The position numbers and the translations under genes were made by a program. DNA of 64,000 nucleotides from Hydrogenophaga aromaticivorans. Lineage in GTDB: Bacteria > Pseudomonadota > Gammaproteobacteria > Burkholderiales > Burkholderiaceae_C. Below the pieces are notes generated by a model. The model made no database searches, had not been told where the DNA came from, and saw nothing but the letters and a program-made list of their open reading frames with translations. Positions 6,306-63,491 of this stretch are shown here, piece after piece. Every line of letters begins with the position of its first letter. The first letter of the stretch is position 1. The stretch lies in the NCBI RefSeq assembly GCF_013387465.1, contig NZ_VYGV01000011.1, positions 62,001-126,000 on the forward strand. Direction: 5' to 3'.

Positions 6306-6340
6306 TCCTTTTCCCGCACACAGCGGTTGTTGTAAAGGAG
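6306..6340 (-). promoter_or_regulatory. SD-sequestering leader of the 5836-6300 gene
   Basis: Read on the minus strand, the arm CTCCTTTA pairs with the ribosome site AAAGGA; the inner stem is CCGC/GCGG; the intervening loop contains ACAACAACC. Same architecture as the other leaders in this window. Confidence 0.7.
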
Positions 6341-6352
6341 ATGCTGGTATGG

Positions 6353-6425
6353 ATTCTCGCAGAAGTCTTCTTCTGCAGGAAGCCACACACGAGGGTGAAG
6401 GTGCCCGCGCGAACGCGGACACCTT
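6353..6425 (-). terminator. Intercistronic double hairpin after the nuclease gene
   Basis: First hairpin AAGGTG...CACCTT (398-425 of the 6 kb block) around a GCG/CGC core lies directly after the nuclease stop. A second hairpin, GCAGAAG/CTTCTGC, lies between it and the next leader. Confidence 0.55.
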
Positions 6426-6434
6426 GGCTTTCAA

Positions 6435-6947
6435 CTACTTCTTCTTGGAGGCCTCCTTGCGAAAGAGCCAAGGAGGCACTGGTTCATCATCACGCCACAG
6501 CCCTTTTCGATCGCTGCGCGCTTGATTTTGGAGGCCCGAGAGACTTCGATCCTTGGCGTAGAACTCATACACCCAGGCATACCCACTGCCCACCATGTGT
6601 GACTGCGCATCGGTGTCGTTGCATGCAACCCTTGCAACCAGACGGTCATAGCGGTCCTTGTTCTGAACGGCAAGCGTGGCCTGCCTTCCAAAGCACAGCT
6701 TGGACAACTCCAGCTTGGCACGACGACCAAATGCCTGCGACGACTCTGGGGCATCAATTTCGCTCAGGCGAACTCGAACAGTCTTGTTTCCAGGCAGCAG
6801 AACATCGATCGTGTCGCCGTCGGAGACGCCGATCACACGCCCATACAAAGCCGTTGCCGAGTGTCCAGTCTGCCCAACAGAAGGAACACCAGCAAATGCA
6901 CCGTAGAAGCCAAAAAGAGCCACAAAGATTGAAGTGAGGATTTCCAT
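6435..6947 (-). CDS. Thermonuclease (SNase-like) family nuclease, membrane-anchored or exported
   Basis: A 170-residue protein with an N-terminal hydrophobic segment (EILTSIFVALFGFYGAFAG) that is a signal peptide or anchor. The SNase fold follows: GRVIGVSDGDTIDVLL, then VRVRLSEIDAPES with the catalytic Arg and Glu, then YDRLVARV with the second catalytic Arg. The family cleaves DNA and RNA with Ca2+. The start at 6947 lies four bases after the stop of the upstream gene. Such nucleases are common passengers on conjugative elements; a role at the cell envelope during DNA transfer is only inference. Confidence 0.85.
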   Translation of the reverse strand: MEILTSIFVALFGFYGAFAGVPSVGQTGHSATALYGRVIGVSDGDTIDVLLPGNKTVRVRLSEIDAPESSQAFGRRAKLELSKLCFGRQATLAVQNKDRYDRLVARVACNDTDAQSHMVGSGYAWVYEFYAKDRSLSGLQNQARSDRKGLWRDDEPVPPWLFRKEASKKK

Positions 6948-6951
6948 GAGA

Positions 6952-7257
6952 CTAGGCCGCGAGGGCAAGTTGTTGTTGAGGAATGCAGATCGGAAGGCTC
7001 AGAGGTTCATTGGCCTTTGCGACATGCAACGACCATTTCAGAAGCCGGGTGACGGTCGATGGATCGTGCAGGTCGGCTGCGTAGAAGAGCAAGTCGCTCT
7101 CCAAGGTCGGGAGGTCTCGGAAAACGCCCACCTTCTCGGCAAGCATCTTCATGCAGAAACGGCGGGTACCACCGGCCCTGCAGTTCGCTGACAGCGCCAG
7201 ATACAAGCGCTGGCGCTTCACGCTGGGGACGTGCGAAGAGCGTTTGTAAATTCGCAT
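6952..7257 (-). CDS. Small basic protein of unknown function
   Basis: A 101-residue protein starting MRIYKRSSHVPSVKRQRLYL. Start at 7257 is one base after the upstream stop, with GAGGAGG inside the end of the upstream gene as ribosome site, so translation is coupled. The N-terminal half is Arg/Lys-rich with two Cys, suggesting nucleic acid binding; no domain recognised. Confidence 0.6.
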   Translation of the reverse strand: MRIYKRSSHVPSVKRQRLYLALSANCRAGGTRRFCMKMLAEKVGVFRDLPTLESDLLFYAADLHDPSTVTRLLKWSLHVAKANEPLSLPICIPQQQLALAA

Positions 7258-7258
7258 C

Positions 7259-7618
7259 TCACACCTCCTCGACAAGAGCACACAACCCGAGCTCACGCTG
7301 CGCCTCATGATCCCACGTGAGCATGGCGCACTCAGGATCTTCCTCGACAAGCATCGCCCACTTCCAGGCCTCTTCACAGGTGCCGTCGAACGACAGAACC
7401 AGTTCGCGATAGCTCCCGAAATCGTGAGACACGCTGCTGGTTTGAATGCCTGCCTTACCTTGTTCCTGCAACTCATGTGGAATCGGGTAGTGGCGAAGGA
7501 TCTGGGACCGAAAGGCCTTCATCTCCTTGCGAGAACGCTCCCGGTAGTCTTCTGCACCGACCTGTGCACAGTCCTCTTCGGACGGCGCAAAGCCGATTTC
7601 GATAACCTGATGTTTCAT
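7259..7618 (-). CDS. Unknown acidic protein
   Basis: A 119-residue protein starting MKHQVIEIGFAPSEED. The start at 7618 follows the leader at 7623-7660, whose TAGGAG is the ribosome site. It is soluble, with Trp-rich C-terminal part (EEAWKWAMLVEEDPECAML). First gene of a coupled trio (this gene, the small basic protein, the nuclease). No family recognised. Confidence 0.6.
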   Translation of the reverse strand: MKHQVIEIGFAPSEEDCAQVGAEDYRERSRKEMKAFRSQILRHYPIPHELQEQGKAGIQTSSVSHDFGSYRELVLSFDGTCEEAWKWAMLVEEDPECAMLTWDHEAQRELGLCALVEEV

Positions 7619-7622
7619 AAAC

Positions 7623-7660
7623 GCTCCTATAAAGGTCCGCAAATGCGGTGTTGGTGGAGC
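7623..7660 (-). promoter_or_regulatory. SD-sequestering leader of the 7259-7618 gene
   Basis: Outer stem GCTCC/GGAGC (the second arm is the ribosome site), inner stem CCGC/GCGG, loop ACCAACA. The outer stem differs from the common CCTTTC/GAAAGG version but still pairs. Confidence 0.75.
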
Positions 7661-7678
7661 GGGCCGTGATCAACGGCT

Positions 7679-7777
7679 TGTGTATGACCTGCGCCATACA
7701 CAAAACGTCGCGATTCATTGGCTCATCTGAGCAGGGAAAAAAAGTTGACCCACCACCCCGCAAGGAGGTGATGGGTC
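7679..7777 (-). terminator. Terminator of the methylase-helicase gene plus second hairpin
   Basis: Minus-strand hairpin GACCCATCACC/GGTGGTGGGTC (7747-7777) is followed by a run of eight T (7736-7743), a classic intrinsic terminator. A second hairpin, TTGTGTATG/CATACACAA (7679-7703), follows before the next leader. Confidence 0.85.
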
Positions 7778-7785
7778 TACAAGGT

Positions 7786-10700: not shown

Positions 10701-12765
10701 ATCGCGCATCGATCCATGGCACACCCAGACGGATAGCCACTTCATTCAGCGCAACAGTTGGCGGCACAACACCCGCGAGGGCTTGGACATTTCGCGCGTA
10801 GACGCTATCGCCCTTCGCCGCAGCGACTGCTTCCTGGTACTTCTGTCTCACCGGGCCACTGAGGTATTCGAGCGAGTCGACCCATTGCCCTGAGTTGGGC
10901 TCCAGGTAAATCCGATCGTTCGCCACCAGTTCATCCACCACCTCTTCATAGGCGGTCTCCATCGCACCTGCCATCCAACCCAGGTTCAGTCGCCCAAACC
11001 GGTTGTAGGACAGAACAATCGCGTCATCCAACGACTGTGCACGGTCAGCCAACACCGCGTGTGAAACGGTGCTGGCCTTGAAGATGTCGGACTTCACAGC
11101 AGTTTCCTGCTCGTCGTCGTAGATCTCCAGTGACCAAAGCAGTGGCGCATGGCTATCGGCTCGGTAGAGGCGCCTGTTGACAGCGCTCATCAGGTGTCCG
11201 TACTGCTGCACGAACCCATCGTAGAGGCCGTTGAGCTGCGCTCGCAGGGCCTGGGCGTGGCTTGCCTTGCTGGCATCCGCTTCAAGCAGCTTGAGGGCAC
11301 AGTCACGGATGCGTGTCATGCCCTCCATGCGCTTGACGCTCGCCGCTGGCAGGTTCTGGAGCGATTGCACTTTCGCGCTCTCGTCCATTTGCAACAGCTC
11401 ACCGTCCTCGTCGAAGAAGAACCCTTGGGCAACGAAGCTCTTGGTTCCAGACGGATCGCGGCGTGGATCTCCGTTTTGGGATGCCTCCACGTTGAGTTCA
11501 GCATCGAAGCACGGCGCAGGCATTCCGGTCGTTGCAAGTGCATCCAGGCGCTTGACCCAGTCACCATGCGGTGTCACCGACAGCTGCGTCCCCCAGCGAT
11601 TGCACTTCCTGTCGAACTTGCCCAACACCCGCTCGGGGTGCTCGACGAAGTGCGCGTTGACAGCGCCGCCAGGAATCCAGTACGGAAAGCCGTTTTCGCA
11701 TGCTTCACGCTTCGGGCCCGACTTGCGCCAGATGCCCGATTCCGGGTCCATCACCTCTTCATCAAGCACACGGTGCCGGCGTTGCAGTATCAGAATGTCC
11801 GCAACCACATCCGTTCCACCGAGGCGCCCAAAGGCACCCGTTGGCAGTCTCACGGCCATCTTGAGTTCGGCCCGGGCGTGAACGTATTTCAGAAACGCTT
11901 CCGTCCCGTTCTCCAGGGTTGCCGTCGACGTGATCACCGCCACGAGTCCGCCGGGGCGAACCATGTCGATGGACTTGGCAACGAAGTAGTTGTGGATGTT
12001 CAGCTTGAGCCGATCCAGGCGCTTGTCACTGACACGGTAGTTGCCAAACGGCACGTTCCCGATCACCAGATCAAAGGCGTCTGTGTAGCCCATCTTCTCA
12101 ATCCCCACCGGATGAACCATCGTCTGCCGGTCTGCATACAACTGCGCAGCAATCTCGGAGGTCAGCGGATCGATGTCGACCATCACCACACGCGAGATCT
12201 GGCGCAGGTCCTCTGGCATGGCCCCAATGAAGTGACCAACGCCGCAGGACGGCTCCAGAATGCGACCACCTTCAAAGCCGAGGCTGCGCACCATCTTCCA
12301 GATACTGCGAATGACCGTCGGCTCGGTGTAGTACGCGGTCAGCACCGATTCCTCAGCGCTTGCGTATTCACCTGGCGTCAGGAGTTCCTTCAGCTTGTTC
12401 TGTGCCCATTCGTACCGCGACTGCGCCGCAAACACCTCGGACAACCCCCCCCAACCTGAAAACGCAGCCAGTGCGGCTTTGTCTTCTGGCGAGGGCAATG
12501 GCGTACCTGGTGCCGTGATCCGCTTGAGCGTTTCGACGGCCAGGATGTTGGCCTTGACCTTGCTGCTTTCGGTGTTCAACGCTTCGAGCATTTCATCCTT
12601 GAGGACGAACAGATCACGCGGCTTGAAGGCCGGCATGACCACTTGCGTCACAGCCTCTTGGATCTCGGTTTTGGCGGAGACCTCCACCGGGATTTCCAGC
12701 GGCACTTCGATCACTTCTTCATCGTCGAACAGGGAGGCCTGGCGACTGTCGTACTTGAATTTCAT
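7786..12765 (-). CDS. Giant N6-adenine DNA methylase fused to SNF2-type helicase
   Basis: A 1,659-residue protein. Domains in order: conserved FSGWGGLSEVF at ~102-112; SAM motif I EPSCGVGHF at ~171; methylase motif IV as GNVPFGNY at ~236 (NVPF in place of NPPY/F); helicase Walker A VGGGKT at ~867; Walker B LVDEAD at ~1023; a STATPISN motif III; motif VI RDGRIIRQG at ~1357; then a ~250-residue coiled C-terminus. The family is typical of large conjugative plasmids and some phages (DarB-like), where it is thought to protect incoming DNA from restriction or act in replication. ATG 12765 is chosen because GGAAGC and the structured leader precede it; the longer frame would translate the leader. Confidence 0.9.
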   Translation of the reverse strand: MKFKYDSRQASLFDDEEVIEVPLEIPVEVSAKTEIQEAVTQVVMPAFKPRDLFVLKDEMLEALNTESSKVKANILAVETLKRITAPGTPLPSPEDKAALAAFSGWGGLSEVFAAQSRYEWAQNKLKELLTPGEYASAEESVLTAYYTEPTVIRSIWKMVRSLGFEGGRILEPSCGVGHFIGAMPEDLRQISRVVMVDIDPLTSEIAAQLYADRQTMVHPVGIEKMGYTDAFDLVIGNVPFGNYRVSDKRLDRLKLNIHNYFVAKSIDMVRPGGLVAVITSTATLENGTEAFLKYVHARAELKMAVRLPTGAFGRLGGTDVVADILILQRRHRVLDEEVMDPESGIWRKSGPKREACENGFPYWIPGGAVNAHFVEHPERVLGKFDRKCNRWGTQLSVTPHGDWVKRLDALATTGMPAPCFDAELNVEASQNGDPRRDPSGTKSFVAQGFFFDEDGELLQMDESAKVQSLQNLPAASVKRMEGMTRIRDCALKLLEADASKASHAQALRAQLNGLYDGFVQQYGHLMSAVNRRLYRADSHAPLLWSLEIYDDEQETAVKSDIFKASTVSHAVLADRAQSLDDAIVLSYNRFGRLNLGWMAGAMETAYEEVVDELVANDRIYLEPNSGQWVDSLEYLSGPVRQKYQEAVAAAKGDSVYARNVQALAGVVPPTVALNEVAIRLGVPWIDARYVEQWLVEQFRIGAKDDLQGDSFAYCSVSVTHLAESASWIVNFNNPKHQLFKTEWGTNRKDFWEILSALLNQQTPEVYDTIELEGGKEKRVINRDETLAAQEKAKKIQDAFERWIFASEQRIGELEQHYNMVFNGRINRTYDGSHLVVPGLNPQVNLRAAQKDSIWRGIVNGNTLYALAVGGGKTLIQICVAQESKRLGIAAKPVLVVPNHMLHAFAGEYLRAFPRAKVLAASKEDLQGDRRRSMLMRMATNDWDCIIVTHSTFGRIGLADEIVKDFIDEVKLQARMSVMGVSDKNVVREASRAAKQVETKLTSLLNGDQDKGLPGFESLGVDLILVDEADLFKNLFFFTKKKRIPGIASSCSSRALDLFIKSRVIFKKRGNDGHGLHFSTATPISNTIGEMFIMQTYLQEERLRELDINSFDAWAANFAREVTCVEVKPEGSGYRMHTRFASFVNVPELMLIFREVAEIRTKKQLGLPEPKLVGGAHRVVAVPASERQKAYVQELVKRAEKIRNGGVTPDEDNMLCVTSDGRKAALDMRIVDPTLADEPESKVNACIRETFRLWDEGRAQRLTQLIFSDLSVPGGFFSVYRHIKDTLMRMGVPGDEIAFAQDYKTDKQKAQLHREVRCGKKRVLLGSTELMGFGTNVQDRLLAKHDLDAPWRPRDVEQRDGRIIRQGNLNEEVHIIRYVTEGTFDAYSWQTLERKAGFIAQVMENNGTARTVEDVTMQALSFAEVKALASGNPMVIEKAGVDAEVARLEALKSVHEKDQRKRASLMRNAKGDLEYTSRQLQAVKAWNEKLRIDLTSFNVWGARFNSASSAAEGIMKRMAAVREAGKGLKRSEISDNEWTLFQTGNLTVKLVTNWSGSNLRACVEGEDLSVTLKKVPYGADRIADYLIEGGIVQEVHDHLKYLQDSIRETESEISTLQNALQSRFEHEEKYTKALQRQAEIDEALEIDVDDKSAMALEEEA

Positions 12766-12771
12766 TTGCTT

Positions 12772-12806
12772 GCTTCCTTTCCCAAAACTGGGGTTGTTGC
12801 GAAAGC
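12772..12806 (-). promoter_or_regulatory. SD-sequestering leader of the methylase-helicase gene
   Basis: Arm GCTTTC pairs with GGAAGC just 3' of GAAAGG; inner stem CCCC/GGGG replaces the usual CCGC/GCGG, a paired change in both arms; loop GCAACAA. Confidence 0.7.
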
Positions 12807-12821
12807 AAGAGCCGCAAGCGG

Positions 12822-12949: not shown

Positions 12950-13999
12950 TCAGGTAGGGCCGCAGCTCTCCCCAAACGCTCCAAGTGGCATCTCCCATCG
13001 GTCTGCTACATGGACTGGGATATCCAGCGTTTTGGAGTTGGCTATGGCGATCCAGCGGTGGTCCAGCGCATAAGGAACACCAGCGTCCGCCCTTTGGACG
13101 ACCGATTCACTGCGATGGATCGTCACGCCAAATTCGCGCTCATACACGGCGATCTTCTGGAAGGCCTCTGGGGCAATCGCTCGCACGGTTGCCCACTGGT
13201 TCTTGCTTCCGAAAATGCACTGACGACATGAGGTGCGTCCCCATCCCAGGTGGTAGGCCGGATGCGCCAGGATGCCCCAGCGCTTGATGATTTCCCACAC
13301 CGCGGCTTCATCCCACTGGTGGATCGGCCGCCAATGGTCGATGTGCCTCTGGTAGGACCGGCCAGTGCGCAGATCGCAACGGTGCGCCTCGAACTGACGG
13401 TACTTCGAGCGTGCCTTGCTCTCCTGAGCTCGCTCGCCCGTGAGCACGAGTGTCTTGCCCCTGGTGAAGACTTCATCGTTCGTCAGGTACCGGGCCCCGG
13501 TGTCGATCTTCAAACTGCTGCTGCACCAGCGAACAGAAAGATTCGCGGACACCTGGGGGAACTTCAGGCGTGTGCCCAGTGGGCCATTGCCCCCCACCGC
13601 TACGAAACCACCAGTGCCGTCAGGAATGCACACAGGCGCTGTGGCAGCATCCTTTCGATTCATCTCGGCCTCGAATCCTCCGCGACGCCAGCTGAGAGTG
13701 AGCTTCACACCAAAGTGCTTTGCAACCGCCTCGCAGTAGGCCTCGGTCACTGGCCAGTCCATGAGGGTCGACCCCTCCCTGCCATCAACCAAGTGGTGGT
13801 GCAGTTCGATCTTCTCTGCCTGCACACCCATCTCCAGCAGATGAAGCAGGCATGCCAAAGAGTCTTTACCACCCGAGAAGAAGACAAGGAATCGGTCGTA
13901 GACGCTGAGATCGACGTTTTCATCATGAATCTCATCGATTTCCTCATTGGCCTGAAGCTCTGGCCAGAGCATTGCTTGTTCGTGGCTACGCGCCTGCAC
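12950..13999 (-). CDS. PP-loop ATP pyrophosphatase of the PAPS reductase/DndC superfamily
   Basis: A 349-residue protein with the PP-loop SGGKDS at ~42-47, which binds and activates ATP in sulfur-transfer and tRNA/DNA-modifying enzymes. A later RTSCRQCIFGSKNQWA stretch supplies a CxxC pair like the Fe-S or Zn site of DndC/PAPS-reductase relatives. The GTG start at 13999 has a GAGGTGG site and overlaps the upstream gene; ATG at 13972 is the alternative. Its immediate partner (13986-14408) is unknown. Possible roles are DNA phosphorothioation-like chemistry, base modification or sulfate assimilation; no sulfate genes are nearby, which favours DNA or RNA modification (inference). Confidence 0.8.
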   Translation of the reverse strand: MQARSHEQAMLWPELQANEEIDEIHDENVDLSVYDRFLVFFSGGKDSLACLLHLLEMGVQAEKIELHHHLVDGREGSTLMDWPVTEAYCEAVAKHFGVKLTLSWRRGGFEAEMNRKDAATAPVCIPDGTGGFVAVGGNGPLGTRLKFPQVSANLSVRWCSSSLKIDTGARYLTNDEVFTRGKTLVLTGERAQESKARSKYRQFEAHRCDLRTGRSYQRHIDHWRPIHQWDEAAVWEIIKRWGILAHPAYHLGWGRTSCRQCIFGSKNQWATVRAIAPEAFQKIAVYEREFGVTIHRSESVVQRADAGVPYALDHRWIAIANSKTLDIPVHVADRWEMPLGAFGESCGPT

Positions 14000-14408
14000 A
14001 AGCCACCTCAGCTGCTGCCATGGTGATGGTGGAGGGTGTCGTCAATACCTCGTAGCGCAAAACCGCCCCGTTGAACATCTTGAGCTCCAGTTGGCCTGTC
14101 TCTCCGATGTACAAGTCGCTGAGCCCACCGCTGCTGCATTGGTCCCCCCAGGTGAAGTCGTAACGGGTGCTCCCGTGGCTGAATCGACCGCACCGCACAC
14201 GGGTGAGCTTGGGCTTGATGGTGAAGCGAATCTGACCCGGAACGGCGCCAAACTCAATGCGGTCTTTCGACTCGACGGCATCGGGGTACTGTTGCTTGAT
14301 GCTCTCAAGGTGTGCAGGCCAATCTTCGGCGGCAAGACCACCGATCATGGTGACCTGGACCTGCCCCTTGACCAGCTCGGCCAAGAGTGCTTTCTTCGTG
14401 ATTTTCAT
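13986..14408 (-). CDS. Unknown protein coupled to the PP-loop ATPase gene
   Basis: A 140-residue protein starting MKITKKALLAELVKGQVQVTM. The C-terminal two thirds look beta-rich (FTIKPKLTRVRCGRFSHGSTRYDFTWG, GETGQLELKMFNGAVLRYEVL). Its 3' end overlaps the PP-loop gene, which suggests a shared function, and its start follows the leader at 14414-14445. No family recognised. Confidence 0.6.
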   Translation of the reverse strand: MKITKKALLAELVKGQVQVTMIGGLAAEDWPAHLESIKQQYPDAVESKDRIEFGAVPGQIRFTIKPKLTRVRCGRFSHGSTRYDFTWGDQCSSGGLSDLYIGETGQLELKMFNGAVLRYEVLTTPSTITMAAAEVACAGA

Positions 14409-14413
14409 TGGTG

Positions 14414-14445
14414 TCCTTTCCGGCATTTGCCGTGTTTAGAAAGGA
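14414..14445 (-). promoter_or_regulatory. SD-sequestering leader of the 13986-14408 gene
   Basis: Outer stem CCTTTC/GAAAGG with the ribosome site in the second arm; inner stem CGGC/GCCG, which replaces CCGC/GCGG by a double change; loop TAAACA. Confidence 0.75.
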
Positions 14446-14455
14446 ACCGCCGTGA

Positions 14456-14905: not shown

Positions 14906-15345
14906 CACGCCTCTCCACTGGTCTGAACTTCACAGCACTTGGCGATGCGGTCCATGATGTCTGCGTGCGACAAGGTGTACACATCCTTGAACGTGAAGCA
15001 GTCGCTACCGATCCGCGCAAAGATGCTCGTGATGCGGCCGCTGTACCGCTCCACAAACTTGAAGGATTCGGTGTTTCCTTGCCTGATCCAGTTCTCGGGT
15101 GGCAGGACTTCAAGAGCCTTCATCCACGCGTCTTGCGAGATCGGCTGAGGGTGCGTGCGGTACGCATCCTCCTGCTCCATGACGATGACGTCCAGTGCTT
15201 CCTTCTCGACACCTGGATGACGCTGGCAGACTTGCTCCAGCGTTTCACCGCTGAACATTCCTGCGCCGGTCATGCTGTTGACGATATCGATGATCTGCGG
15301 CGCAGCGCCTGCTTCACGCAATACAAAACATTCCTTGTTGGCCAT
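14905..15345 (-). CDS. Unknown protein
   Basis: A 146-residue soluble protein starting MANKECFVLREAGAAPQIID. Start at 15345 follows GAAAGGAACC of the leader at 15351-15390. It is helical in the first half and ends with a Cys pair (AKCCEVQTSGEA). No domain recognised. Confidence 0.6.
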   Translation of the reverse strand: MANKECFVLREAGAAPQIIDIVNSMTGAGMFSGETLEQVCQRHPGVEKEALDVIVMEQEDAYRTHPQPISQDAWMKALEVLPPENWIRQGNTESFKFVERYSGRITSIFARIGSDCFTFKDVYTLSHADIMDRIAKCCEVQTSGEA

Positions 15346-15350
15346 GGGTT

Positions 15351-15390
15351 GGTTCCTTTCGTTACCCCAGAGTGGGCGATTGTTGAAACC
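15351..15390 (-). promoter_or_regulatory. SD-sequestering leader of the 14905-15345 gene
   Basis: Outer stem GGTTTC/GGAACC (one mismatch), inner stem CCCA/TGGG, loop AACAA. The ribosome site GAAAGGAAC lies in and before the second arm. Confidence 0.6.
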
Positions 15391-15890
15391 GGAGCGAGAG
15401 TGCCTTTGCAAAGCGCAACCGCTTTGCAAAGTCATCTTGGACAAATGGATTGCGCAGTGGCCCGTCGTGCTGAGACGCAAGTCGGCGACGACCCGAGTTC
15501 GACGCTAGGGATGAAATTGGATAAGTTGGAATTTGCCGTGGCCAGCCCTGGGACACGGCGAAGGCGTTTTTGGTGCCTTCAGCCCGGACTGACCAGTGCC
15601 CTCAGAGAGCTTGTGCGCGTGGCCAAGAGGCACACGCAAAACCCACGGAACGGCGCAACCTCGCTGTCAGGTAACGCCATGCGCACTGGACGAAATGCCT
15701 TCTCCCGCAAGCGCGGCTTTTGACGGCATTGCGCGTGATGTTGCTCGATTTTCTTCGGAAAGACAAGAGGTGAAAAACGTGCTTTATGGCGAGCTTTCAC
15801 CATTCCAACCATCCATCAATGTGTTAGAGAGATGGCGCGTTTTCTTATATGCCTGAATCGCTCTTTGACCGACCTCTTGATAACCAAAAG
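15391..15890. other. Gene-poor gap with one strong hairpin
   Basis: About 500 bases without a convincing gene. A perfect hairpin, CTTTGCAAAGCG/CGCTTTGCAAAG, lies at 15404-15431, in the position where other units have their second hairpin. A 77-codon minus-strand frame at 15579-15812 (basic, Cys-containing) has no ribosome site and is doubtful. Confidence 0.4.
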
Positions 15891-52185: not shown

Positions 52186-52191
52186 GGTGTT

Positions 52192-52224: not shown

Positions 52225-52236
52225 ATGGCCAACACA

Positions 52237-56926: not shown

Positions 56927-58672
56927 TTACCAGCTCACGAGTTTGGGGATGCGGCCTCGGTACTCGAAGCCCTTGACTTCGAGAATCGCCTTGATGAAGT
57001 CTTCCTTGCCCAAGGCGCGTGCTTTCGCATACTCCTTGTCCATGGCCGCGGCAATACCGAGTTCGCCGGCGACGACATCGATTTCGTTCTTCGTCAGCTT
57101 CTCGAAAAAGCCCTTGTCCACCTTCCAGTGGTCGGCGAGCTTCACTTCGAGGGCCTTGAGTGCACTCACAACGTCTTCGATGCCCATGCCCATGGGGCCG
57201 GAGCGGACGTTGCCTGCAATCGCACTGATGGCCTGTCCCAGATCCTGCTCACGCAGGTCAAGAACGGTTGCAAGCACCTTCCCGAAGGAATGCGAGCTCT
57301 CTCCACCCAGGATTGCTTTGAGGTCGGTGCCGAGTCCTTGAGCATCGAGATGCCCAGGGTGCGTCAAGCAAATAGCCAGCAGCACAGCCCGGTTGTTGAC
57401 CAGAGAAGCGTTGGAGACGACGCGCTTGAACACGCTGCGCCACAACTCTTCCCGGTATTCCTTCACGCGATTCGACGGCTCGGGGTAGACCACCTTCTTG
57501 TCCTTTTCCTTGCCCGAGTCGTTGCCGGGCGGGGTTGCCCCCTTTCCGGCCGCCGCACCACTCTCACGAGGGCCAGGGCTTGCGGGTGTTGTCACCTGGT
57601 TGGCGGCCTGCTGAGTGAGCTTCGCGGCTTCAGCAGCCTTTGCTGCTGCGACCTCATCGCTCACCCGTTTGGCCACCATCGTGGTGTTGCAGGGGACATC
57701 CATGCAGAGGTTTTTGAACACCTTGCCCAGCTTGTCCGGCGCTGCAGCGACCACCGCACCAAAGTTCTGGCACGCGCGACAGGCCTGCGCCTGCTCGATG
57801 CCAACACCCTTGGCGCCTTCGGCCACCAGCGGGATCACGGTGAAGTTTTCGCCGGGGCGAACGACTCGCACGTTCTGGAATTCCTCACGCAGCGCGTTTG
57901 CACGGCCCGCAAGTTCTGCTTCGGTCTTTTCGTCGTAGCACTGCTTGTTGGTGCAGCGCCCGCCATTGATGACCTGGGCGAAGAGCGCAGATTGATTGCC
58001 AGAGTTGTGGACGCAGCCAGCGCACTGATCCTTGTTGAAGATCGCACTGTCGAGAACCAACGCAGCCGAGTTGATGACATCCTTGAATGCCTCAACCGTC
58101 ATCTGCTTCTGCGAGCTGAGCAGCATGGCCAGAGCGGAAACCTGGGTCTCCTTTCGGCAGACCGCAAGCAGCTCAGCATGCCCCAGCAAGATCTTCTTCT
58201 GATGCAATGCCAGGCGCACCGGCTCGATCGCATACATGAGCGCAAGACGCTTATCCAGCGTTGTCACACTCCAACCCATGCGTGTGGCGGCTTCAGCCCG
58301 GTCACCTTTGCAGTCCCCAAGAATCTTGGCAGCTGCTTCAGCCTCTTCCAACGGCGTCATCGGTTCACGGGCGATGTTCTCGGTCAATGCAGCTGCATCG
58401 GCGAGTTCGTCTTCCATGTCTTTGATCATCGCTGGGATGAAGGCTTCATCACCATAGACCTTTCGCCACGCACGAAGGCGGCGCTCACCGGCAATCAGCT
58501 GAAAGTCATCAGCGTCACGGCGGACGAGAATGGGCGTCAGAAGACCACCCATGGCACGAATCGAGTCTTCCAACTCTGTCATGCTCTTTTCATCGAAGTG
58601 CTGGCGCGGGTTTCGACCAGCTTTGATTCGGCAAACCTGAATGTTTTGCCCTTGAAATTCTTCTGTTTTCAC
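56927..58672 (-). CDS. parB: PRTRC ParB family partition protein
   Basis: A 581-residue protein with GTG start. ParB N-terminal nuclease/CTPase-like domain: SIRAMGGLLTPILVRRD and LIAGERRLRAWRKV at ~40-80, ENIAREPMTPLEEAEA at ~110; then the helix-turn-helix (AATRMGWSVTTLDKRLAL ~150) and a Cys-rich segment (CAGCVHN, GGRCTNKQC, ~215-245) that probably binds zinc. A C-terminal ~250-residue extension follows. Much longer than standard ParB (~300). It heads the operon parB-E-C-F-B-A-thiF; PRTRC D (actin-like) is not in the window. Confidence 0.9.
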   Translation of the reverse strand: MKTEEFQGQNIQVCRIKAGRNPRQHFDEKSMTELEDSIRAMGGLLTPILVRRDADDFQLIAGERRLRAWRKVYGDEAFIPAMIKDMEDELADAAALTENIAREPMTPLEEAEAAAKILGDCKGDRAEAATRMGWSVTTLDKRLALMYAIEPVRLALHQKKILLGHAELLAVCRKETQVSALAMLLSSQKQMTVEAFKDVINSAALVLDSAIFNKDQCAGCVHNSGNQSALFAQVINGGRCTNKQCYDEKTEAELAGRANALREEFQNVRVVRPGENFTVIPLVAEGAKGVGIEQAQACRACQNFGAVVAAAPDKLGKVFKNLCMDVPCNTTMVAKRVSDEVAAAKAAEAAKLTQQAANQVTTPASPGPRESGAAAGKGATPPGNDSGKEKDKKVVYPEPSNRVKEYREELWRSVFKRVVSNASLVNNRAVLLAICLTHPGHLDAQGLGTDLKAILGGESSHSFGKVLATVLDLREQDLGQAISAIAGNVRSGPMGMGIEDVVSALKALEVKLADHWKVDKGFFEKLTKNEIDVVAGELGIAAAMDKEYAKARALGKEDFIKAILEVKGFEYRGRIPKLVSW

Positions 58673-58677
58673 GAGTA

Positions 58678-58715
58678 CCTATCCTTTCTGCATAGTTGCA
58701 GTGTTGAGAGATAGG
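58678..58715 (-). promoter_or_regulatory. SD-region leader of parB and the PRTRC operon
   Basis: Outer stem CCTATC/GATAGG and inner stem CTGCA/TGCAG: both stems are changed on both sides compared with CCTTTC/GAAAGG and CCGC/GCGG, with loop TCTCAACA kept. The GAAAGGAT ribosome site is partly in the outer stem. Confidence 0.85.
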
Positions 58716-58727
58716 CAAGCCAACAAA

Positions 58728-58777
58728 GGCTTTCCAACGGGCTCTTCAAAAGTCCGTTAGAAAGCCCTCCGTGGAGG
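58728..58777 (-). terminator. Intercistronic double hairpin after the 58793-59317 gene
   Basis: First hairpin CCTCC/GGAGG; second hairpin GGCTTTCTAACGG/CCGTTGGAAAGCC overlaps its 3' side. Confidence 0.75.
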
Positions 58778-59317: not shown

Positions 59318-60053
59318 GATCGACCTCCATGCCGCCCAGGGCCGCATCCACACCACTGCCATCAATCAACGCCAAGGCCTTGAAGACATCAAACCCATCG
59401 AAACTGGTTTGTGCCAAAAAGTGCTGTACGTCTTGCATGCGCACGCGCACACGTCTGTCAGTGGATGCTGAGATCACGGCCTTGCACAAGTCATCGTTCA
59501 TGAAGTGGCGAAGTCCTTCTTCGATGACATCGTCATTCATGAAACCTCGCAGATCGCCATCGACAGATTCGCCGGCAACGTCGTCACCGTCGAGGTCTTT
59601 CCATTCGATGTCTGCGTTCAAAGAATATGCGAGGCCCGCCTCGCTATCGTCGCTGTAGTAGCAGGCTTTGCTGAGCTTGATTTCGACGCTCTCAAGGTCG
59701 GCATTTTGAACAAAGAGCTTCACAAGCTCGACACCAACCTCGGAGAGGTCTCGGACCATCACGGCCACACTCGCCTTTTCCTGCAGTTCTGCAATCTGCT
59801 TCCACGTTTGCTTCCCTGTGGCTACGAGGCCACCTTCCTGCCGGAGGCCTGTGAGTTGCGGGAGGACACGGATGCACTTTTCGGCGTGGACACCGGCATC
59901 CCACGATGCGATTCGGTCATCACTGGTCTGCCAGGATGGACCGACACAGCCGAAGGATTCGAGAACGATGGAATGTGCTTGATCGAGGTCTTGCGCCTGC
60001 ACTTGCACTTCAGCTTCGAAGGTGAAGGCGACTTTGACGAGATGAGAATTCAT
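59307..60053 (-). CDS. Unknown acidic protein
   Basis: A 248-residue protein starting MNSHLVKVAFTFEAEVQVQA. The first ~45 residues look like a small alpha/beta domain; the middle is helical; the C-terminal part is acidic (DIEWKDLDGDDVAGESVDGD) and ends in a helical DAALGGMEVDHVG. No family recognised. First gene of a coupled pair. Confidence 0.6.
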   Translation of the reverse strand: MNSHLVKVAFTFEAEVQVQAQDLDQAHSIVLESFGCVGPSWQTSDDRIASWDAGVHAEKCIRVLPQLTGLRQEGGLVATGKQTWKQIAELQEKASVAVMVRDLSEVGVELVKLFVQNADLESVEIKLSKACYYSDDSEAGLAYSLNADIEWKDLDGDDVAGESVDGDLRGFMNDDVIEEGLRHFMNDDLCKAVISASTDRRVRVRMQDVQHFLAQTSFDGFDVFKALALIDGSGVDAALGGMEVDHVG

Positions 60054-60061
60054 TTGAACTT

Positions 60062-60100
60062 CCTTCATTGGATGCCGGCATGTGCGGCGGTTGATGAAAG
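60062..60100 (-). promoter_or_regulatory. Leader of the 59307-60053 gene
   Basis: Outer arms CTTTCAT/ATGAAGG (with a bulge), inner stem GCCG/CGGC, loop CAACC. A less perfect member; GAAGG is the ribosome site. Confidence 0.6.
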
Positions 60101-60113
60101 AGTCTGCTCAGAA

Positions 60114-60244: not shown

Positions 60245-61659
60245 CCCGTTGCCCTCGCAAGGTTGTAGACAGGGGTACTGCGCTGCCCTTGATGAAGCTC
60301 CGAATCCCAGACATTCAGGGATTGTCCAAGTCTTCGAAACAGTGCTTTGACCAGTGCATACAGCACGCTCTGGCCCAGCAACTGGTGAGCCCTGCCCTGT
60401 GCCATGTCATCGATCAAGTGCTCAGGTACCTGTTTGATCCTTGCATGCTCCTTTGCAGTGAAGAGCCGGTAGATGCCATCTCGATCAGGGTGCGCGAGTA
60501 GAGGATCGGTTGATCCACCTTTGTGATAGCCCTTCCGCAAAACCGGCACGCTGGTGTCCGTTGGGTGGACGATTTGCATACCGAATCCGTTGCCCTTTTC
60601 TGCGTCGCGAATCGCCTTGGTCTTGAGATACTGAAAGTCTCGCCAGGATGGGTCATCCAGCGGGACTTCTTCAAGTACCTCTGACACTGTTCGCACGGGG
60701 TTGCACACAGGCGCAATGCCTGCAAGGTCCACCTCGATACCATTTGTGGCGGCGACCATGAACCAGCGGGTGCGGTTCTCAAGCACACCGAACTCTTTCC
60801 CGTTGAGGATGACTTCGTTCACGCTGTAGCCACTGTCACGCAGGTGTTGTCGGATGATCTGAGCCGAAGCTGTCTGCTGGTATTCCTTGACACACTCGAC
60901 GACCACAACGGCCGGTTGCGTGCGCTGGACCACCATCAAGAAGCTCGCCGCCAGATGCCCCACTTCAGGATGCGACTCCATCATGTCCAGGCCTCGCTTG
61001 GAGGCGCCAGCCCGGGATGCACCTGAGCAAGGGATACCGACTGCCAGCACGTCAACCTGAGGTATGCGCTGCATCAGCCACTCGTCTTGCACCGCTTCCT
61101 GCATTGGAGCCGCGAGGCCCATGCTCCCTGCACCCCAGACCTCATTCCTGCCTCTGGAGTGCTCCATCAGATCGTCATCGATTTCATTGGCGAAGGCCAT
61201 TTGTGCTTCGATGCCGGCGTCTGCCAACCCGTGGTGTGCAGCGTTGTCCAAGATGCCTCCACCATGCGAGAGAGAGGCGCTGACCAGCTGGCCACGAGAT
61301 AGGTTCTCACGCAAACGCCGCAGCCGTCTGCGTGCGTTGGCCTCGGATGCAATAGGCATCGCGCTAATCACTCCATCCTGAATCACGAGGCGGACAGCCT
61401 TGAGGCCATCCAATGCCGATAGCGCTTCCTTGCTGTTGATGTCGATGACGGGAAAGACTTTGCCACCGCGTTCCTTTCTGGACACACGGTACTGCCCATA
61501 GTCATCGAGCCGGAGGACGATCTTGCCGTCATCGACTTTGCGGTTGTAGGCCGCACCAGGCACAAAGCCCGCCAACGCCAGGAACTGGGTTTCCATGTAG
61601 ATCCTCGGAGCACCCTTGTTCTGTCCTATCTGTTGGACCAAGTACTTTCGAATAGCCAT
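60241..61659 (-). CDS. DNA cytosine-5 methyltransferase
   Basis: A 472-residue protein. The catalytic motif GIPCSGASRAG is at ~208-218 (Cys211); SAM-site HGGGILDNAAHHGL at ~132; ECVKEY (motif VI-like); ENRTRWFMVA (motif VIII-like); motif X near GQSVLYALV. Residues 1-100 form an extra domain whose AGFVPGAAYNRKVDDGKIVL part resembles SymE/AbrB-type swapped-hairpin domains (tentative). No cognate restriction enzyme is present, so it probably protects the element from host restriction. Start 61659 is set by the leader. Confidence 0.87.
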   Translation of the reverse strand: MAIRKYLVQQIGQNKGAPRIYMETQFLALAGFVPGAAYNRKVDDGKIVLRLDDYGQYRVSRKERGGKVFPVIDINSKEALSALDGLKAVRLVIQDGVISAMPIASEANARRRLRRLRENLSRGQLVSASLSHGGGILDNAAHHGLADAGIEAQMAFANEIDDDLMEHSRGRNEVWGAGSMGLAAPMQEAVQDEWLMQRIPQVDVLAVGIPCSGASRAGASKRGLDMMESHPEVGHLAASFLMVVQRTQPAVVVVECVKEYQQTASAQIIRQHLRDSGYSVNEVILNGKEFGVLENRTRWFMVAATNGIEVDLAGIAPVCNPVRTVSEVLEEVPLDDPSWRDFQYLKTKAIRDAEKGNGFGMQIVHPTDTSVPVLRKGYHKGGSTDPLLAHPDRDGIYRLFTAKEHARIKQVPEHLIDDMAQGRAHQLLGQSVLYALVKALFRRLGQSLNVWDSELHQGQRSTPVYNLARATG

Positions 61660-61665
61660 TTTTGG

Positions 61666-61707
61666 CCTCCTTATTGATGCTGCAAATTGGCAGCTGTTGG
61701 AAGGAGG
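61666..61707 (-). promoter_or_regulatory. SD-sequestering leader of the methyltransferase gene
   Basis: Outer stem CCTCCTT/AAGGAGG (7 pairs, contains the ribosome site); inner stem GCTGC/GCAGC; loop CCAACA. Both stems differ from the common form on both sides. Confidence 0.88.
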
Positions 61708-61717
61708 TAAGCCGATA

Positions 61718-61767
61718 GGCTTTCTGCTGGGATTGCCCAGTAGAAAGCCCACCCCCAAAGGGGCAGG
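61718..61767 (-). terminator. Intercistronic double hairpin after the DUF1566 gene
   Basis: First hairpin CCCC/GGGG within GCC/GGGC; second hairpin GGCTTTCTACTGGG/CCCAGCAGAAAGCC. Confidence 0.8.
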
Positions 61768-61795: not shown

Positions 61796-62242
61796 TCAAT
61801 TCCTGGTGCGAACCAGTCGAACCCATCCCGGTGCTGTAGACACGTGGTAGCCGGGACCCGGGTGTGAAAAGTCCACAACCCAGAACTCGCCTGGCAGACC
61901 TTGGTAGCTGGACGAAGACCAGTACCACCCGTCTTTGGGTGAGGCATTTGATCCAACAAGGGTCTGCAACTCGTCGATAGTCGGAACACGCCAATCGTCG
62001 TGGCCATGGTTCAGCGTTGGACTGGCGTTGACTCGGTCAACAAGTTCGGAAACATCACCTGGGCGACCGTCTCCCCAGTTCGTGTACCGCATCTGTCGTT
62101 CATCGCACGCGACAAGCCATTGAAGCTGGCTGCTCGCGATCACATCATGGCCGGCCATATTTGGACTGAAGCGCTCGCATGCGTGCTGGTGCAGCTCAAG
62201 ATCCGAGTTGTTGGTCATGGGCTCACAATTGGTAGGTTTCAT
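61796..62242 (-). CDS. DUF1566 (Lcl C-terminal-type) protein
   Basis: A 148-residue protein starting MKPTNCEPMTNNSDLELHQH. DWRVPTIDELQTLVGS, GWYWSSSSYQG, FWVVDFSHPG and WVRLVRTRN are the DUF1566 pattern, a fold related to C-type-lectin/formylglycine-enzyme-like domains. No signal peptide, unlike many family members. Function unknown. Confidence 0.8.
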   Translation of the reverse strand: MKPTNCEPMTNNSDLELHQHACERFSPNMAGHDVIASSQLQWLVACDERQMRYTNWGDGRPGDVSELVDRVNASPTLNHGHDDWRVPTIDELQTLVGSNASPKDGWYWSSSSYQGLPGEFWVVDFSHPGPGYHVSTAPGWVRLVRTRN

Positions 62243-62246
62243 GGTG

Positions 62247-62280
62247 CCTTTCTCCCCATACACAGGGGTCTATTGAAAGG
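62247..62280 (-). promoter_or_regulatory. SD-sequestering leader of the DUF1566 gene
   Basis: Outer stem CCTTTC/GAAAGG; inner stem CCCC/GGGG; loop AATAGA. Confidence 0.8.
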
Positions 62281-62290
62281 GACAGCCGGT

Positions 62291-62342
62291 GGGCTTTCTT
62301 ATGCCCTCAACAGGCATAAGAAAACCCGCCGAAGCGGGCTTT
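62291..62342 (-). terminator. Intercistronic double hairpin after the 62357-62650 gene
   Basis: First hairpin AGCCCGC-TTCG-GCGGGT then TTTCTT. Second hairpin GGGTTTTCTTATGCC/GGCATAAGAAAGCCC reuses GGGT and the T run. Confidence 0.88.
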
Positions 62343-62356
62343 GGCTGGGTGACAGA

Positions 62357-62650
62357 TCAGCCCTGAGGACGGCACTCGATGAGTTCGTTGCCCACGATGG
62401 TGAATGCAATTTCGCCATCTTCGCTCAGTGCCTCGGTCTGATGCAGTCGCATGTACTCTTGGGCATTTTTGACAGCATCGGGGTCGACAGGAATCCGCTT
62501 GCCGTTGGGCTTGAGGAACATGGTCCAGTAGCTCTGCCATGGTGCGCCCTTGGAGCTCGGGAATCCCACAGTCATGGGCACGGGGAGCAGCTCCATCTTC
62601 GCGCCTGAGATCGCGGCGATTTCGAGTGGTGCTGTGAGTTTCAGTTTCAT
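62357..62650 (-). CDS. Small unknown protein
   Basis: A 97-residue protein starting MKLKLTAPLEIAAISGAKME and ending VGNELIECRPQG. Beta-rich first half, helix in the middle. Preceded by a leader and divergent from the 62803 gene. No family recognised. Confidence 0.62.
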   Translation of the reverse strand: MKLKLTAPLEIAAISGAKMELLPVPMTVGFPSSKGAPWQSYWTMFLKPNGKRIPVDPDAVKNAQEYMRLHQTEALSEDGEIAFTIVGNELIECRPQG

Positions 62651-62655
62651 GGATA

Positions 62656-62692
62656 CCTTTCTATATCCGCACATAGCGGTTGTGTTGAAAGG
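62656..62692 (-). promoter_or_regulatory. SD-sequestering leader of the 62357-62650 gene
   Basis: Outer stem CCTTTC/GAAAGG, loop AACACAA, inner stem CCGC/GCGG. Confidence 0.82.
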
Positions 62693-62740
62693 GTGGTGCA
62701 ATGCACTTTGATCTGCAGAAGATGCACAGCAAAATGCACG

Positions 62741-62768
62741 TTGAACAATGCGCCGCATGCGCTAGGAT
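62741..62768 (+). promoter_or_regulatory. Promoter of the 62803 gene
   Basis: TTGAAC, 16-base spacer, TAGGAT, about 35 bases before the ATG. The best sigma70-like promoter seen in the window. Confidence 0.55.
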
Positions 62769-62802
62769 GAACCACGTTTTATCCAATTCTCAGGAGATCA
62801 CC

Positions 62803-63006
62803 ATGACCACTTCCAGCAAAGAAGTCGGCGAGCAACTCAAGAGCTACGACCCTCAAACGGCTGAGCAAGTCAAAGCGGACTTCGACGCCGGCAAGACGCT
62901 GCCCACGGACAAAGACCATGACGTGAACGTGATGGCCAAGCGCTTTGAAGCGATGGGCCTGCCAAGTAGCACCTTCGAAAAGATATGCAAGGACGCAGGC
63001 CTTTGA
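62803..63006 (+). CDS. Small unknown protein
   Basis: A 67-residue protein, MTTSSKEVGEQLKSYDPQTA..., with AGGAG eight bases before the ATG and a good promoter. It is charged and helical, ending FEKICKDAGL. The only lone plus-strand gene in the right third; possibly a regulator, but no DNA-binding motif is clear. Confidence 0.7.
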   Translation: MTTSSKEVGEQLKSYDPQTAEQVKADFDAGKTLPTDKDHDVNVMAKRFEAMGLPSSTFEKICKDAGL

Positions 63007-63034
63007 GTGAGTCCGAAGACTCACTCAAAGCCCG

Positions 63035-63385
63035 CTAGACCACGCGGTTGAACTTGGCGTTCGCCCACGCAACCCCCACCCTCTGAAGTACATCACTCGG
63101 CGTGTGGCCGATGATCCTCTCTACGTTGCGTACAGAGACCCATTGGTTGCCACCGCCACCCCAATGGAACTGAGTGTGAAACCGCAGTCCCATACTTTTC
63201 AACGCACTCTCTTCTGAGACGATAACGGTCGTCGGATCGTTGACAAGGCCCTTGGTTGAGCCGAGCAACAAATAGACGCGATCGTCCTGAACTTCTATCA
63301 CTATCGCAGGCCGCACTTTGGTCTGGCTTCCGTAATGCACGAATGCATACACGACACAGCCAGGAACAAGCTTCTTCTGATACAT
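63035..63385 (-). CDS. MazF/PemK-like protein
   Basis: A 116-residue protein starting MYQKKLVPGCVVYAFVHYGS. PGCVVYAFVHYGSQTKVRPA followed by IVIEV matches the start of the MazF/PemK SH3-like barrel (G-x-V...RPAIVI), and a THTQFHWGG-type segment follows (residues ~80-90). These are mRNA interferase toxins or related non-toxic proteins. No antitoxin gene is next to it, so a toxin role is uncertain. Confidence 0.55.
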   Translation of the reverse strand: MYQKKLVPGCVVYAFVHYGSQTKVRPAIVIEVQDDRVYLLLGSTKGLVNDPTTVIVSEESALKSMGLRFHTQFHWGGGGNQWVSVRNVERIIGHTPSDVLQRVGVAWANAKFNRVV

Positions 63386-63390
63386 CGCGT

Positions 63391-63432
63391 CTCTCCTTCG
63401 GTTCCAAAAGGTTGGTAACAAATGGAGGAGAG
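63391..63432 (-). promoter_or_regulatory. SD-sequestering leader of the MazF/PemK-like gene
   Basis: Outer stem CTCTCCT/AGGAGAG (7 pairs) with the ribosome site; inner stem CCAA/TTGG. Confidence 0.78.
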
Positions 63433-63439
63433 CCAGGCT

Positions 63440-63491
63440 GGGCTTTCTCAAAGCACGGGCCTTGAGAAAGCCCATCCTCAATTGGATGGGC
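63440..63491 (-). terminator. Intercistronic double hairpin after the RadC remnant
   Basis: First hairpin GCCCATCC/GGATGGGC; second hairpin GGGCTTTCTCAA/TTGAGAAAGCCC shares GGGC. Confidence 0.8.

Follow-up and report, generated by a model that had tools for sequence, protein, structure and literature searches.

Gene content of the locus

The stretch of DNA analysed here (the window, 64,000 nucleotides (nt) of Hydrogenophaga aromaticivorans) comprises bases 62,001-126,000 of a 199,959-base contig (NZ_VYGV01000011.1, hereafter C28) in a host genome of 5.63 Mb. The contig is a PRTRC-type plasmid; it carries genes of a type IV secretion system (T4SS), namely TrbI, CagX, VirB8, TrbL, TrbE-like and VirB11-like, together with a Rep3 replication protein and a relaxase candidate, whose match to TraI_2 falls just under the cut-off and which resembles TraI of plasmid pPNAP01. 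The window itself holds a PRTRC cassette with ParB (58672-56927) and ThiF (52586-53428), both named after their pPNAP01 homologues, and further genes such as DUF932, dnaN, SSB, toprim/primase, sbcC-like and methylase genes; the open reading frame (ORF) at 12765-7786 has a homologue annotated as N-6 DNA methylase in pPNAP01 and matches Pfam Eco57I just below cut-off. The subject of this study is a structured leader that hides the Shine-Dalgarno (SD) sequence of genes in this block. Its copies are confined to 6.3-15.4 kb and 33.7-63.4 kb and to a single strand (minus), and between the two groups lie the T4SS genes (16.9-26.2 kb) and an IS21 element (30.4-32.7 kb).

As judged by the DUF932 protein, the nearest plasmids are those of Polaromonas sp. 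P1-6 (66 % identity), P. naphthalenivorans pPNAP01 (63 %) and Cupriavidus sp. USMAA2-4 (54 %), and the nearest genome contigs belong to Hydrogenophaga sp. NFH-34 (77 %) and Giesbergeria (67 %). When 38-62 kb of the window was compared by megablast with plasmid and phage collections, no match was found.

The SD-hiding leader in the window

In total 28 copies were examined, i.e. the 27 of an original prediction for this DNA and one further copy at 51070-51115, all coordinates being read on the minus strand (Table 1). When the leader is folded alone, at least 5 outer pairs are present in the minimum-energy fold of 27 of the 28 copies (26 of the 27 predicted), the sole failure being 34527-34571, which the prediction had placed at 34537; when 80 nt upstream and 30 nt of the gene are included, the number is 23 of 28 (23 of 27). 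The claim that unrelated genes share a structured, SD-hiding leader is thus borne out. The copy predicted at 46986 (46975-47024) is a good match with its own hairpin upstream, yet it has no start codon in place; the gene it once served may be lost, or its use may be non-coding. For the copy at 50426-50479 it is ambiguous which SD is hidden, as a further SD-like motif, AGGAG, is present after the concealed GAAAGG and ahead of the ATG. At 37 C the 28 leaders have a mean energy of -13.1 kcal/mol.

The arms are matched copy by copy. The best helix between an anti-SD arm and its own SD partner averages 6.48, against 5.13 +/- 0.17 when partners are permuted between copies (0 of 2000 permutations; z=7.8; 28 copies), and the inner stem gives z=6.1 in the window copies, a figure to be read with the caveat that its windows overlap. 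In fact the arm pairs vary jointly, as in CCTTTC/GAAAGG, CTCTCCT/AGGAGAG, CGCTTCT/AGGAGCG, CTTGCTTTC/GGAAGCAAG, TGATTC/GAATCA and CCTATC/GATAGG. The earlier description of the anti-SD arm as usually CCTTTC proved too strong, since this holds in 8 of 28 copies; the loop motif CAACA occurs in 15 of 28, and AAC within bases 5-22 of the leader in 23 of 28.

A strict scanner, which uses no covariance model, was written only after the copies had been seen. It found 21 sites in the window on the gene strand versus 0 on the opposite strand, and a looser scanner 39 on the minus versus 14 on the plus strand. Over the window and 11 related loci the strict scanner gave 57 versus 1 by strand, and over 13 control loci 3 versus 2.

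Table 1. Leader copies and upstream hairpins in the window. R2 scores are bit scores of matches at E <= 0.5 to the covariance model R2 described in the next section.
Feature	Position	Strand	Gene or ORF behind	Remarks	R2 (bits)
SD-hiding leader	63383-63432	-	ORF 63385-63035	arms CTCTCCT/AGGAGAG, then ATG	no match
SD-hiding leader	62648-62692	-	ORF 62650-62357	arms CCTTTC/GAAAGG	33.6
SD-hiding leader	62240-62280	-	ORF 62242-61796 (Lcl_C)		no match
SD-hiding leader	61657-61707	-	C5 cytosine methylase 61659-60241	arms CCTCCTT/AAGGAGG	no match
SD-hiding leader	60051-60101	-	ORF 60053-59307		no match
SD-hiding leader	58670-58715	-	PRTRC ParB 58672-56927	arms CCTATC/GATAGG	17.6
SD-hiding leader	52183-52225	-	ORF 52185-51943		34.2
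SD-hiding leader	51801-51850	-	DUF5983 ORF 51803-51237		27.6
Extra leader, absent from prediction	51070-51115	-	ORF from 51072	folds alone, not in context	18.4
Leader	50426-50479	-	ORF 50428-50084	ambiguous which of two SD-like sites is hidden	35.5
Leader	48191-48234	-	ORF 48193-47777	folds alone, not in context	28.7
Leader-like hairpin	46975-47024	-		no start codon behind (remnant?)	28.3
SD-hiding leader	46679-46722	-	ORF 46681-46292		36.4
Leader	45905-45957	-	ORF 45907-45662	folds alone, not in context	32.1
SD-hiding leader	43825-43868	-	sbcD-like gene 43827-42571		24.5
SD-hiding leader	42434-42480	-	ORF 42436-42176		41.5
SD-hiding leader	42036-42085	-	DUF932 gene 42038-41073		33.3
SD-hiding leader	40868-40916	-	sbcC-like gene 40870-38435		no match
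SD-hiding leader	38304-38349	-	ORF 38306-38112	without AAC	no match
Leader	37952-37999	-	ORF 37954-37511	arms CGCTTCT/AGGAGCG; folds alone, not in context	29.2
SD-hiding leader	35722-35762	-	toprim/primase-like gene 35724-34657		23.6
Leader-like copy	34527-34571	-	ORF 34529-33894	SD hairpin not the minimum-energy fold	no match
SD-hiding leader	33747-33802	-	dnaN-like gene 33749-32889		no match
SD-hiding leader	15343-15392	-	ORF 15345-14905		no match
SD-hiding leader	14406-14448	-	ORF 14408-13986		28.6
SD-hiding leader	12763-12809	-	ORF 12765-7786	arms CTTGCTTTC/GGAAGCAAG	28.9
SD-hiding leader	7616-7661	-	ORF 7618-7259	arms CGCTCC/GGAGCG	28.1
SD-hiding leader	6298-6339	-	ORF 6303-5836		27.9
Hairpin 2 (example)	40920-40963	-		upstream of sbcC-like leader; GGGTTTTCTACTGGG..CCCAGCAGAAAGCCC; score 14.8, 18 pairs, 3 nt from leader
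Hairpin 1 (example)	40955-40970	-		shares bases with that hairpin 2; palindrome listed as terminator-like on + strand, minus reading by eye
Hairpin 2	50485-50538	-		before leader 50426-50479
Hairpin 1, terminator-like	50527-50546	-		overlaps hairpin 2 of 50485-50538
Hairpin 2	42092-42148	-		before DUF932 leader
Hairpin 1, terminator-like	42142-42158	-		overlaps DUF932 hairpin 2
Hairpin 2	43876-43918	-		before sbcD-like leader
Hairpin 1, terminator-like	43912-43929	-		overlaps sbcD-like hairpin 2
Hairpin 2	58720-58774	-		before PRTRC ParB leader
Hairpin 2	62286-62332	-		before leader 62240-62280
Hairpin 2	61714-61753	-		before cytosine methylase leader

The leader in related elements

Two covariance models were built, R1 from 17 window copies and R2 from 28 copies (19 from the window, 7 from P1-6, and 1 each from pPNAP01 and USMAA2-4), and annotated gene starts were accepted as given. 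R2 misses genuine copies, including the sbcC, dnaN and toprim leaders that can be seen by eye in Hydrogenophaga, as can that of sbcD, and therefore its counts are lower bounds. Over the own genome, the 15 best R1 matches all lie in C28 at 68.3-124.7 kb, and the best match outside C28 reaches 17.9 bits, in a scan in which 150 of 1366 first-look candidates were scored and known C28 copies were lost as well. In three plasmid stretches R2 gave 26 matches, all on the DUF932 strand and many stopping just before annotated starts. Among 80 DUF932 loci from genome contigs there were 25 matches of at least 18.7 bits, again all on the DUF932 strand and all in six Burkholderiales loci (Hydrogenophaga, two Giesbergeria, a Burkholderiaceae metagenome-assembled genome, Polynucleobacter and Noviherbaspirillum); below this score there are weaker matches to both strands, and two of these, at 18.3-18.5 bits, come from loci outside the six. 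Altogether the leader is detected in relatives from Polaromonas, Hydrogenophaga, Giesbergeria, Polynucleobacter, Noviherbaspirillum and Cupriavidus, always on the strand of the block; its carriers are a group of large plasmids from bacteria of soil and water. The device had been predicted to be element-wide: it is tied to one gene block and not to the whole element, and it does recur on related plasmids in several genera.

In 80 DUF932 loci from viral collections the leader search returned 5 matches at E 1.3 or worse. Besides the own genome, 1 of 299 genomes of the family matched at E 0.01 and 11 of 399 genomes of the order gave one weak match each at E 0.05 (strict filters; the counts include the own genome), which is about the chance expectation.

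Pooling 14 chosen sources at E <= 0.5 yields 66 matches, of which 28 had been in the training alignment. All 66 are on the strand of the block, or 65 of 65 without locus L020, whose match is not counted for strand because the locus was oriented by the match itself. Of the 66, 64 show an outer helix of at least 5 pairs and 50 carry AAC in the 5' loop; in 49, a start codon that opens an ORF of at least 40 aa lies within 17 nt. The outer stem is matched with z=9.5 in all 66 copies and with z=6.2 (0 of 5000) in the 30 copies from stretches outside R2 training. The covariation score is 0.487 against 0.218 for shuffled alignments (0 of 500), the best slid version giving 0.188, on an alignment that was fitted to the structure, and such alignments are biased toward the structure used to fit them. 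Covariation of the arms in homologous elements, the check proposed with the prediction, is accordingly found. As far as comparison of sequences goes, it is established that within each copy the arms of the SD hairpin have stayed complementary to each other, the SD in most cases being part of the 3' arm. Helix 2 (the inner stem) is paired in 95.4 % of cells and helix 1 in 73.6 %.

Predicted accessibility was computed for the 48 of 66 leaders having both helix and start, and for the 13 of 41 control genes having an SD-like motif. The median probability of the SD being unpaired is 0.01-0.05 at 10-42 C in the leaders and 0.43 at 37 C in the controls. In pPNAP01, the SD lies in a helix of at least 6 pairs in 11 of 30 block genes versus 4 of 73 other fetched genes (p=0.00016); ten leaders of this plasmid are weaker than those of the window, with a mean of -9.7 versus -13.1 kcal/mol. 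In the corresponding block of pMOL28, the SD lies in a plain stem in 7 of 36 genes, where shuffles lead one to expect 1.4; for the rest of the plasmid the figures are 6 of 111 genes and 3.4 expected (p=0.017). These small numbers hint that SD hiding may predate the AAC core.

Some further sites were noted in these elements. Plain SD-hiding hairpins with neither inner stem nor AAC are seen in the pMOL28 block (L015 251, 9119, 22263 and 25774; L198 40712), and similar plain hairpins on a Burkholderia contaminans plasmid (L016:7698 and 8236). In Hydrogenophaga, near-identical stretches of about 100 nt stand before sbcD and sbcC (L038:7640-7740 and 11680-11780), each upstream of the gene-adjacent leader and itself a model match without a start codon. 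On the Polaromonas plasmids, leader matches at L009:4568, 27017 and 36658 and at L010:19629 and 24693 have no start with a 40-aa ORF within 17 nt, and may mark unannotated or mis-started genes.

The constant core

While the arms change from gene to gene, the part that they enclose hardly does. Counting from the inner stem in the 66 copies, position -4 is A in 91 % and position +2 is A in 88 %; position -1 is A or G in 94 % and +1 in 84 %, and between -9 and -2 hardly any G occurs. AAC is found within 9 nt of the stem in 51 of 66 copies, and in 48 of 66 it stands 1 or 2 nt ahead of the stem, although recovery of the core is favoured by the training of R2 on such copies. Arms that drift around a core that stays are what one would expect of a core that is being read.

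Two overlapping hairpins upstream

In the gaps between genes the leader is preceded by further conserved structure, which the prediction had missed, and it makes up only the final third of the whole module. From 5' to 3' the module consists of a terminator-like hairpin 1 (A:B), a long hairpin 2 (B:C), for example GGGCTTTCTACTGGG-CAAT-CCCAGCAGAAAGCC, and the SD hairpin (hairpin 3) with its AAC internal loop. The 5' arm of hairpin 2 contains the 3' arm of hairpin 1 and the U-run, and therefore the two hairpins are mutually exclusive. In 36 of 66 copies, the score of hairpin 2 lies above the 99th percentile of shuffled sequence. In 45 of 66 it was strong and near enough for the A:B test, and A:B matching gives z=6.7 in the 28 window copies and z=6.5 in 29 copies elsewhere. 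Moreover, among 14 regions upstream of DUF932, hairpin 2 and the SD hairpin can be seen by eye in 10, with different letters.

The gaps between neighbouring genes measure 114-202 nt in 18 of 26 cases; the other 8 are longer, partly because the ORF list is partial. In these gaps ordinary promoters do not stand out: upstream of the 28 units, the best pairs of sigma-70-like hexamers score 7.3 on average versus 7.8 in shuffled sequence, and in 36.0-52.5 kb such sites are rarer than in shuffles (1 vs 4.1 +/- 1.7).

Relation to known families

Concealment of the SD in a stem is of a kind already known. In RNA thermometers and in phage and ribosomal-protein translational operators a stem occludes the SD, and the present leader shares with them a conserved SD-containing stem, seen in context in 23 of 28 window copies. 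To our knowledge such leaders guard one or few genes, whereas in the present case they precede about 27 unrelated genes that belong to a single block, with gene-specific arms round a constant core; we know of no other plasmid block in which SDs are sequestered gene by gene in leaders that have a constant core and are accompanied by further hairpins. As for hairpin 2, it resembles the RNase III sites between the early genes of phage T7, which are likewise intergenic hairpins with internal mismatches, but the T7 early region is not known to have a series of SD hairpins.

In agreement with the prediction that no described family fits, a cmscan of the window against 4227 Rfam families gave no match at gathering score, and looser limits gave chance-level matches only, both in 42.0-44.3 kb and in 33.0-63.6 kb (E up to 5; mir-153, mir-4798 and Vault). 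The sbcD RNA (RF01757), for which at least 40 bits were required, is likewise from Burkholderiales and has one copy in the corresponding block of pMOL28 (L015:18727-18881, 158.4 bits), but it is an RNA of its own, with several stems over 155 positions, and no match was found in the window, in the own genome (E 0.001) or on the Polaromonas plasmids L009 and L010. The radC RNA (RF01754), which is linked to DNA genes of mobile elements, differs in its 149 positions, and its best match in the own genome (E 1.35) is below cut-off and off the plasmid contig. A table of PMC2864571 gives it as a cis-regulatory candidate in Proteobacteria, which is a point of likeness.

The closest idea is the STAXI motif, a repeated structure near genes for single-stranded DNA (ssDNA) binding, antirestriction and other DNA handling, for which the passage in Weinberg et al. 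2010 (PMC2864571) leaves open whether RNA or ssDNA is the active form. Like the present module, it is a structured repeat near DNA-handling genes; it differs in consisting mainly of tandem pseudoknots, which that passage does not place on the SD, and Rfam has no match to the window. Frpo ssDNA promoters, as described in the relevant part of PMC11541004, are also hairpins before co-oriented genes of plasmid leading regions, but they carry -35/-10 boxes, while the window leaders have no standout boxes and are tied to SD and start. In searches of the open-licence literature, including passages of PMC11541004, PMC11647585, PMC2864571 and PMC8708921, no description of the leader was found. The leaders form a real, phylogenetically conserved and apparently undescribed RNA family, found here only on plasmid-like elements.

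A proposed translation gate and its alternatives

The best explanation overall, to which we would give about one chance in two, is an RNA-level translation gate that is probably opened in trans through the AAC loop. Its parts differ in strength: that the SD is gated at the level of RNA is very probable, while a trans-acting factor that reads the loop is put forward only tentatively, the opener being inferred.

In this model, hairpin 1 would sit as a terminator-like structure behind the preceding gene, and hairpin 2 would reuse its 3' arm and short U-run; most likely the two hairpins separate or trim cistrons, through leaky termination or RNase III-type cutting. In hairpin 3, the gene-specific anti-SD arm would pair with the SD, enclosing the inner stem of 4-5 bp and the purine-flanked AAC internal loop, and the gene, carried on a read-through transcript, would be poorly translated until the leader opens. 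Since the SD is predicted to be shut and no promoter stands out, each gene seems dependent on read-through and on opening of the leader. The opener would be a trans-acting protein or RNA, borne by the plasmid, that reads the constant AAC/inner-stem part; as this part would be read while the arms are free to drift, one factor could switch the whole block, perhaps at establishment or transfer. It is possible, though we hold this with less confidence still, that the block forms a post-transcriptional regulon, in which one element-encoded factor on an AAC/inner-stem aptamer frees the SDs together and so synchronises the translation of replication, repair, methylation and probable establishment genes without gene-by-gene promoters.

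Several observations weigh against such a gate. Five of the 28 window copies (51070, 48191, 45905, 37952 and 34527) do not have the SD hairpin in the minimum-energy fold in context, and R2 misses 9 of the 28 at E 0.5. Among the 66 pooled matches, SD-like letters lie in the 3' arm of the outer helix in 56, 17 have no start codon with ORF in reach, and 15 have no AAC in the last 9 nt before the stem. Pairs changed on both sides number 9 versus 8.4 in shuffled alignments (reached in 254 of 500 shuffles), and RNAalifold unaided predicts only the inner stem on this alignment, which we ascribe to shifts in the register of the outer arms. By eye, ssb and the PRTRC genes after parB are without such a leader; pMOL28 keeps a similar block, yet its fetched 31-kb stretch has no R2 match, and no clear module is seen at the DUF932 genes of L044, L045, pMOL28 and L046 (Halomonas). 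Terminator-like sites in 36.0-52.5 kb show no clear excess (20 vs 15.7 +/- 3.9). Finally, comparison of shared gene content gave no leader-specific protein as a candidate binding factor.

The lack of a binding factor and the free drift of the arms would equally suit a passive insulator, that is, ligand-free hairpins which merely damp the translation of leaky read-through and so keep the cost of a large plasmid to its host low, with the AAC loop only keeping the fold clean. The short U-run of hairpin 1 could indeed be leaky, and the 18 gaps of 114-202 nt without a standout sigma-70-like promoter also suit this account. However, damping needs neither a loop as constant as this one (A in 91 % and 88 %) nor compensatory changes in the inner stem, 95.4 % of whose cells are paired, and we regard the insulator as a serious but unlikely account.

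It is improbable that the hairpins act at the level of DNA, in ssDNA during transfer, as Frpo-like promoters or as priming sites of a leading region. Such a role would accord with usual promoters not being seen and with the co-oriented block of ssb, methylases, DUF932 and parB, a content resembling plasmid leading regions as described in the relevant part of PMC11541004. In both Polaromonas plasmids, pPNAP01 and P1-6, the block moreover ends shortly before an FlhC-type regulator on the other strand, followed by TraI or TraI-like ORFs and TraD; the order on C28 differs, its relaxase candidate being about 15 kb off on the upstream side of the block. Hairpin 3 is tied to SD and start codon, and the -35/-10 boxes of Frpo, given in the same part of PMC11541004, do not stand out here. 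Taken overall, the mismatches favour RNA as well: in hairpin 2, G-U exceeds A-C by 56 to 27 on the sense strand (p=0.0009), though in the strong subset the preference is not significant (31 to 20, p=0.48), and in the outer stems of hairpin 3 the counts are 12 and 3, with 23 other mismatches.

A thermosensor of the ROSE or fourU kind, one of the roles suggested in the prediction, would explain an SD paired with a U-rich anti-SD, and the ten pPNAP01 leaders are in fact weaker than those of the window. It is nevertheless very unlikely and was not supported, because the predictions keep the SD closed at all temperatures between 10 and 50 C, its median accessibility barely shifting from 0.01 to 0.04-0.09; moreover a sensor of this kind has no use for a constant loop, and the named genes are not heat-shock genes.

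Hairpins 1 and 2 have arm B in common, and A:B complementarity is conserved within each copy, so that one could imagine a cis relay, in which hairpin 2, by forming or not, would govern the availability of the anti-SD arm and the state of the terminator would set translation. This idea is hardly tenable: in the window the 3' arm of hairpin 2 matches its own anti-SD less well than permuted ones (z=-2.8; 1999 of 2000 permutations reach it), elsewhere the match is at chance (z=-0.2), and linker to SD gives z=0.4; the relay is rejected on these permutations. That AG-rich SDs beside pyrimidine-rich tracts fold through composition alone has practically no likelihood, for although GAAAGG and CUUUC recur across copies, the arms are specific to their own partners, there is a strand bias, and, with 150 of 1366 candidates scored, nothing else in the host genome exceeds 17.9 bits, nor does any match in 73 more distant DUF932 loci exceed 18.5 bits.

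Two other candidates were set aside. Translational coupling to the upstream gene is unlikely because the upstream stop lies 114-202 nt before the start in 18 of 26 gaps, and integron-like attC cassettes were considered by eye only.

Promoters are generally regarded as the switches of plasmid gene blocks; here the wiring seems to run gene by gene at translation, the same module in different letters standing before about 27 genes and being kept across several genera. If one factor reads the loop, the mobile element would carry an RNA regulon of its own, which would offer a handle on how large plasmids stay cheap yet switch on quickly. A concrete family and its model, both searchable and testable, are now in hand.

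Other features of the locus

The IS21-type element (30408-32749) is flanked by 23-bp repeats (ATGGCGGACA...TTCCA) at 30241-30355 and 32768-32790, which are probably terminal repeats. Two genes of PAPS-reductase type lie at 12950-13999 and 43945-45720 on the minus strand, the second having a homologue in the pMOL28 block. An FlhC-family regulator is found near the relaxase in both Polaromonas plasmids (L035:2858-3400 and L036:6588-7142), and a homologous ORF lies near the relaxase candidate of C28, at 143133-143822 of the contig.

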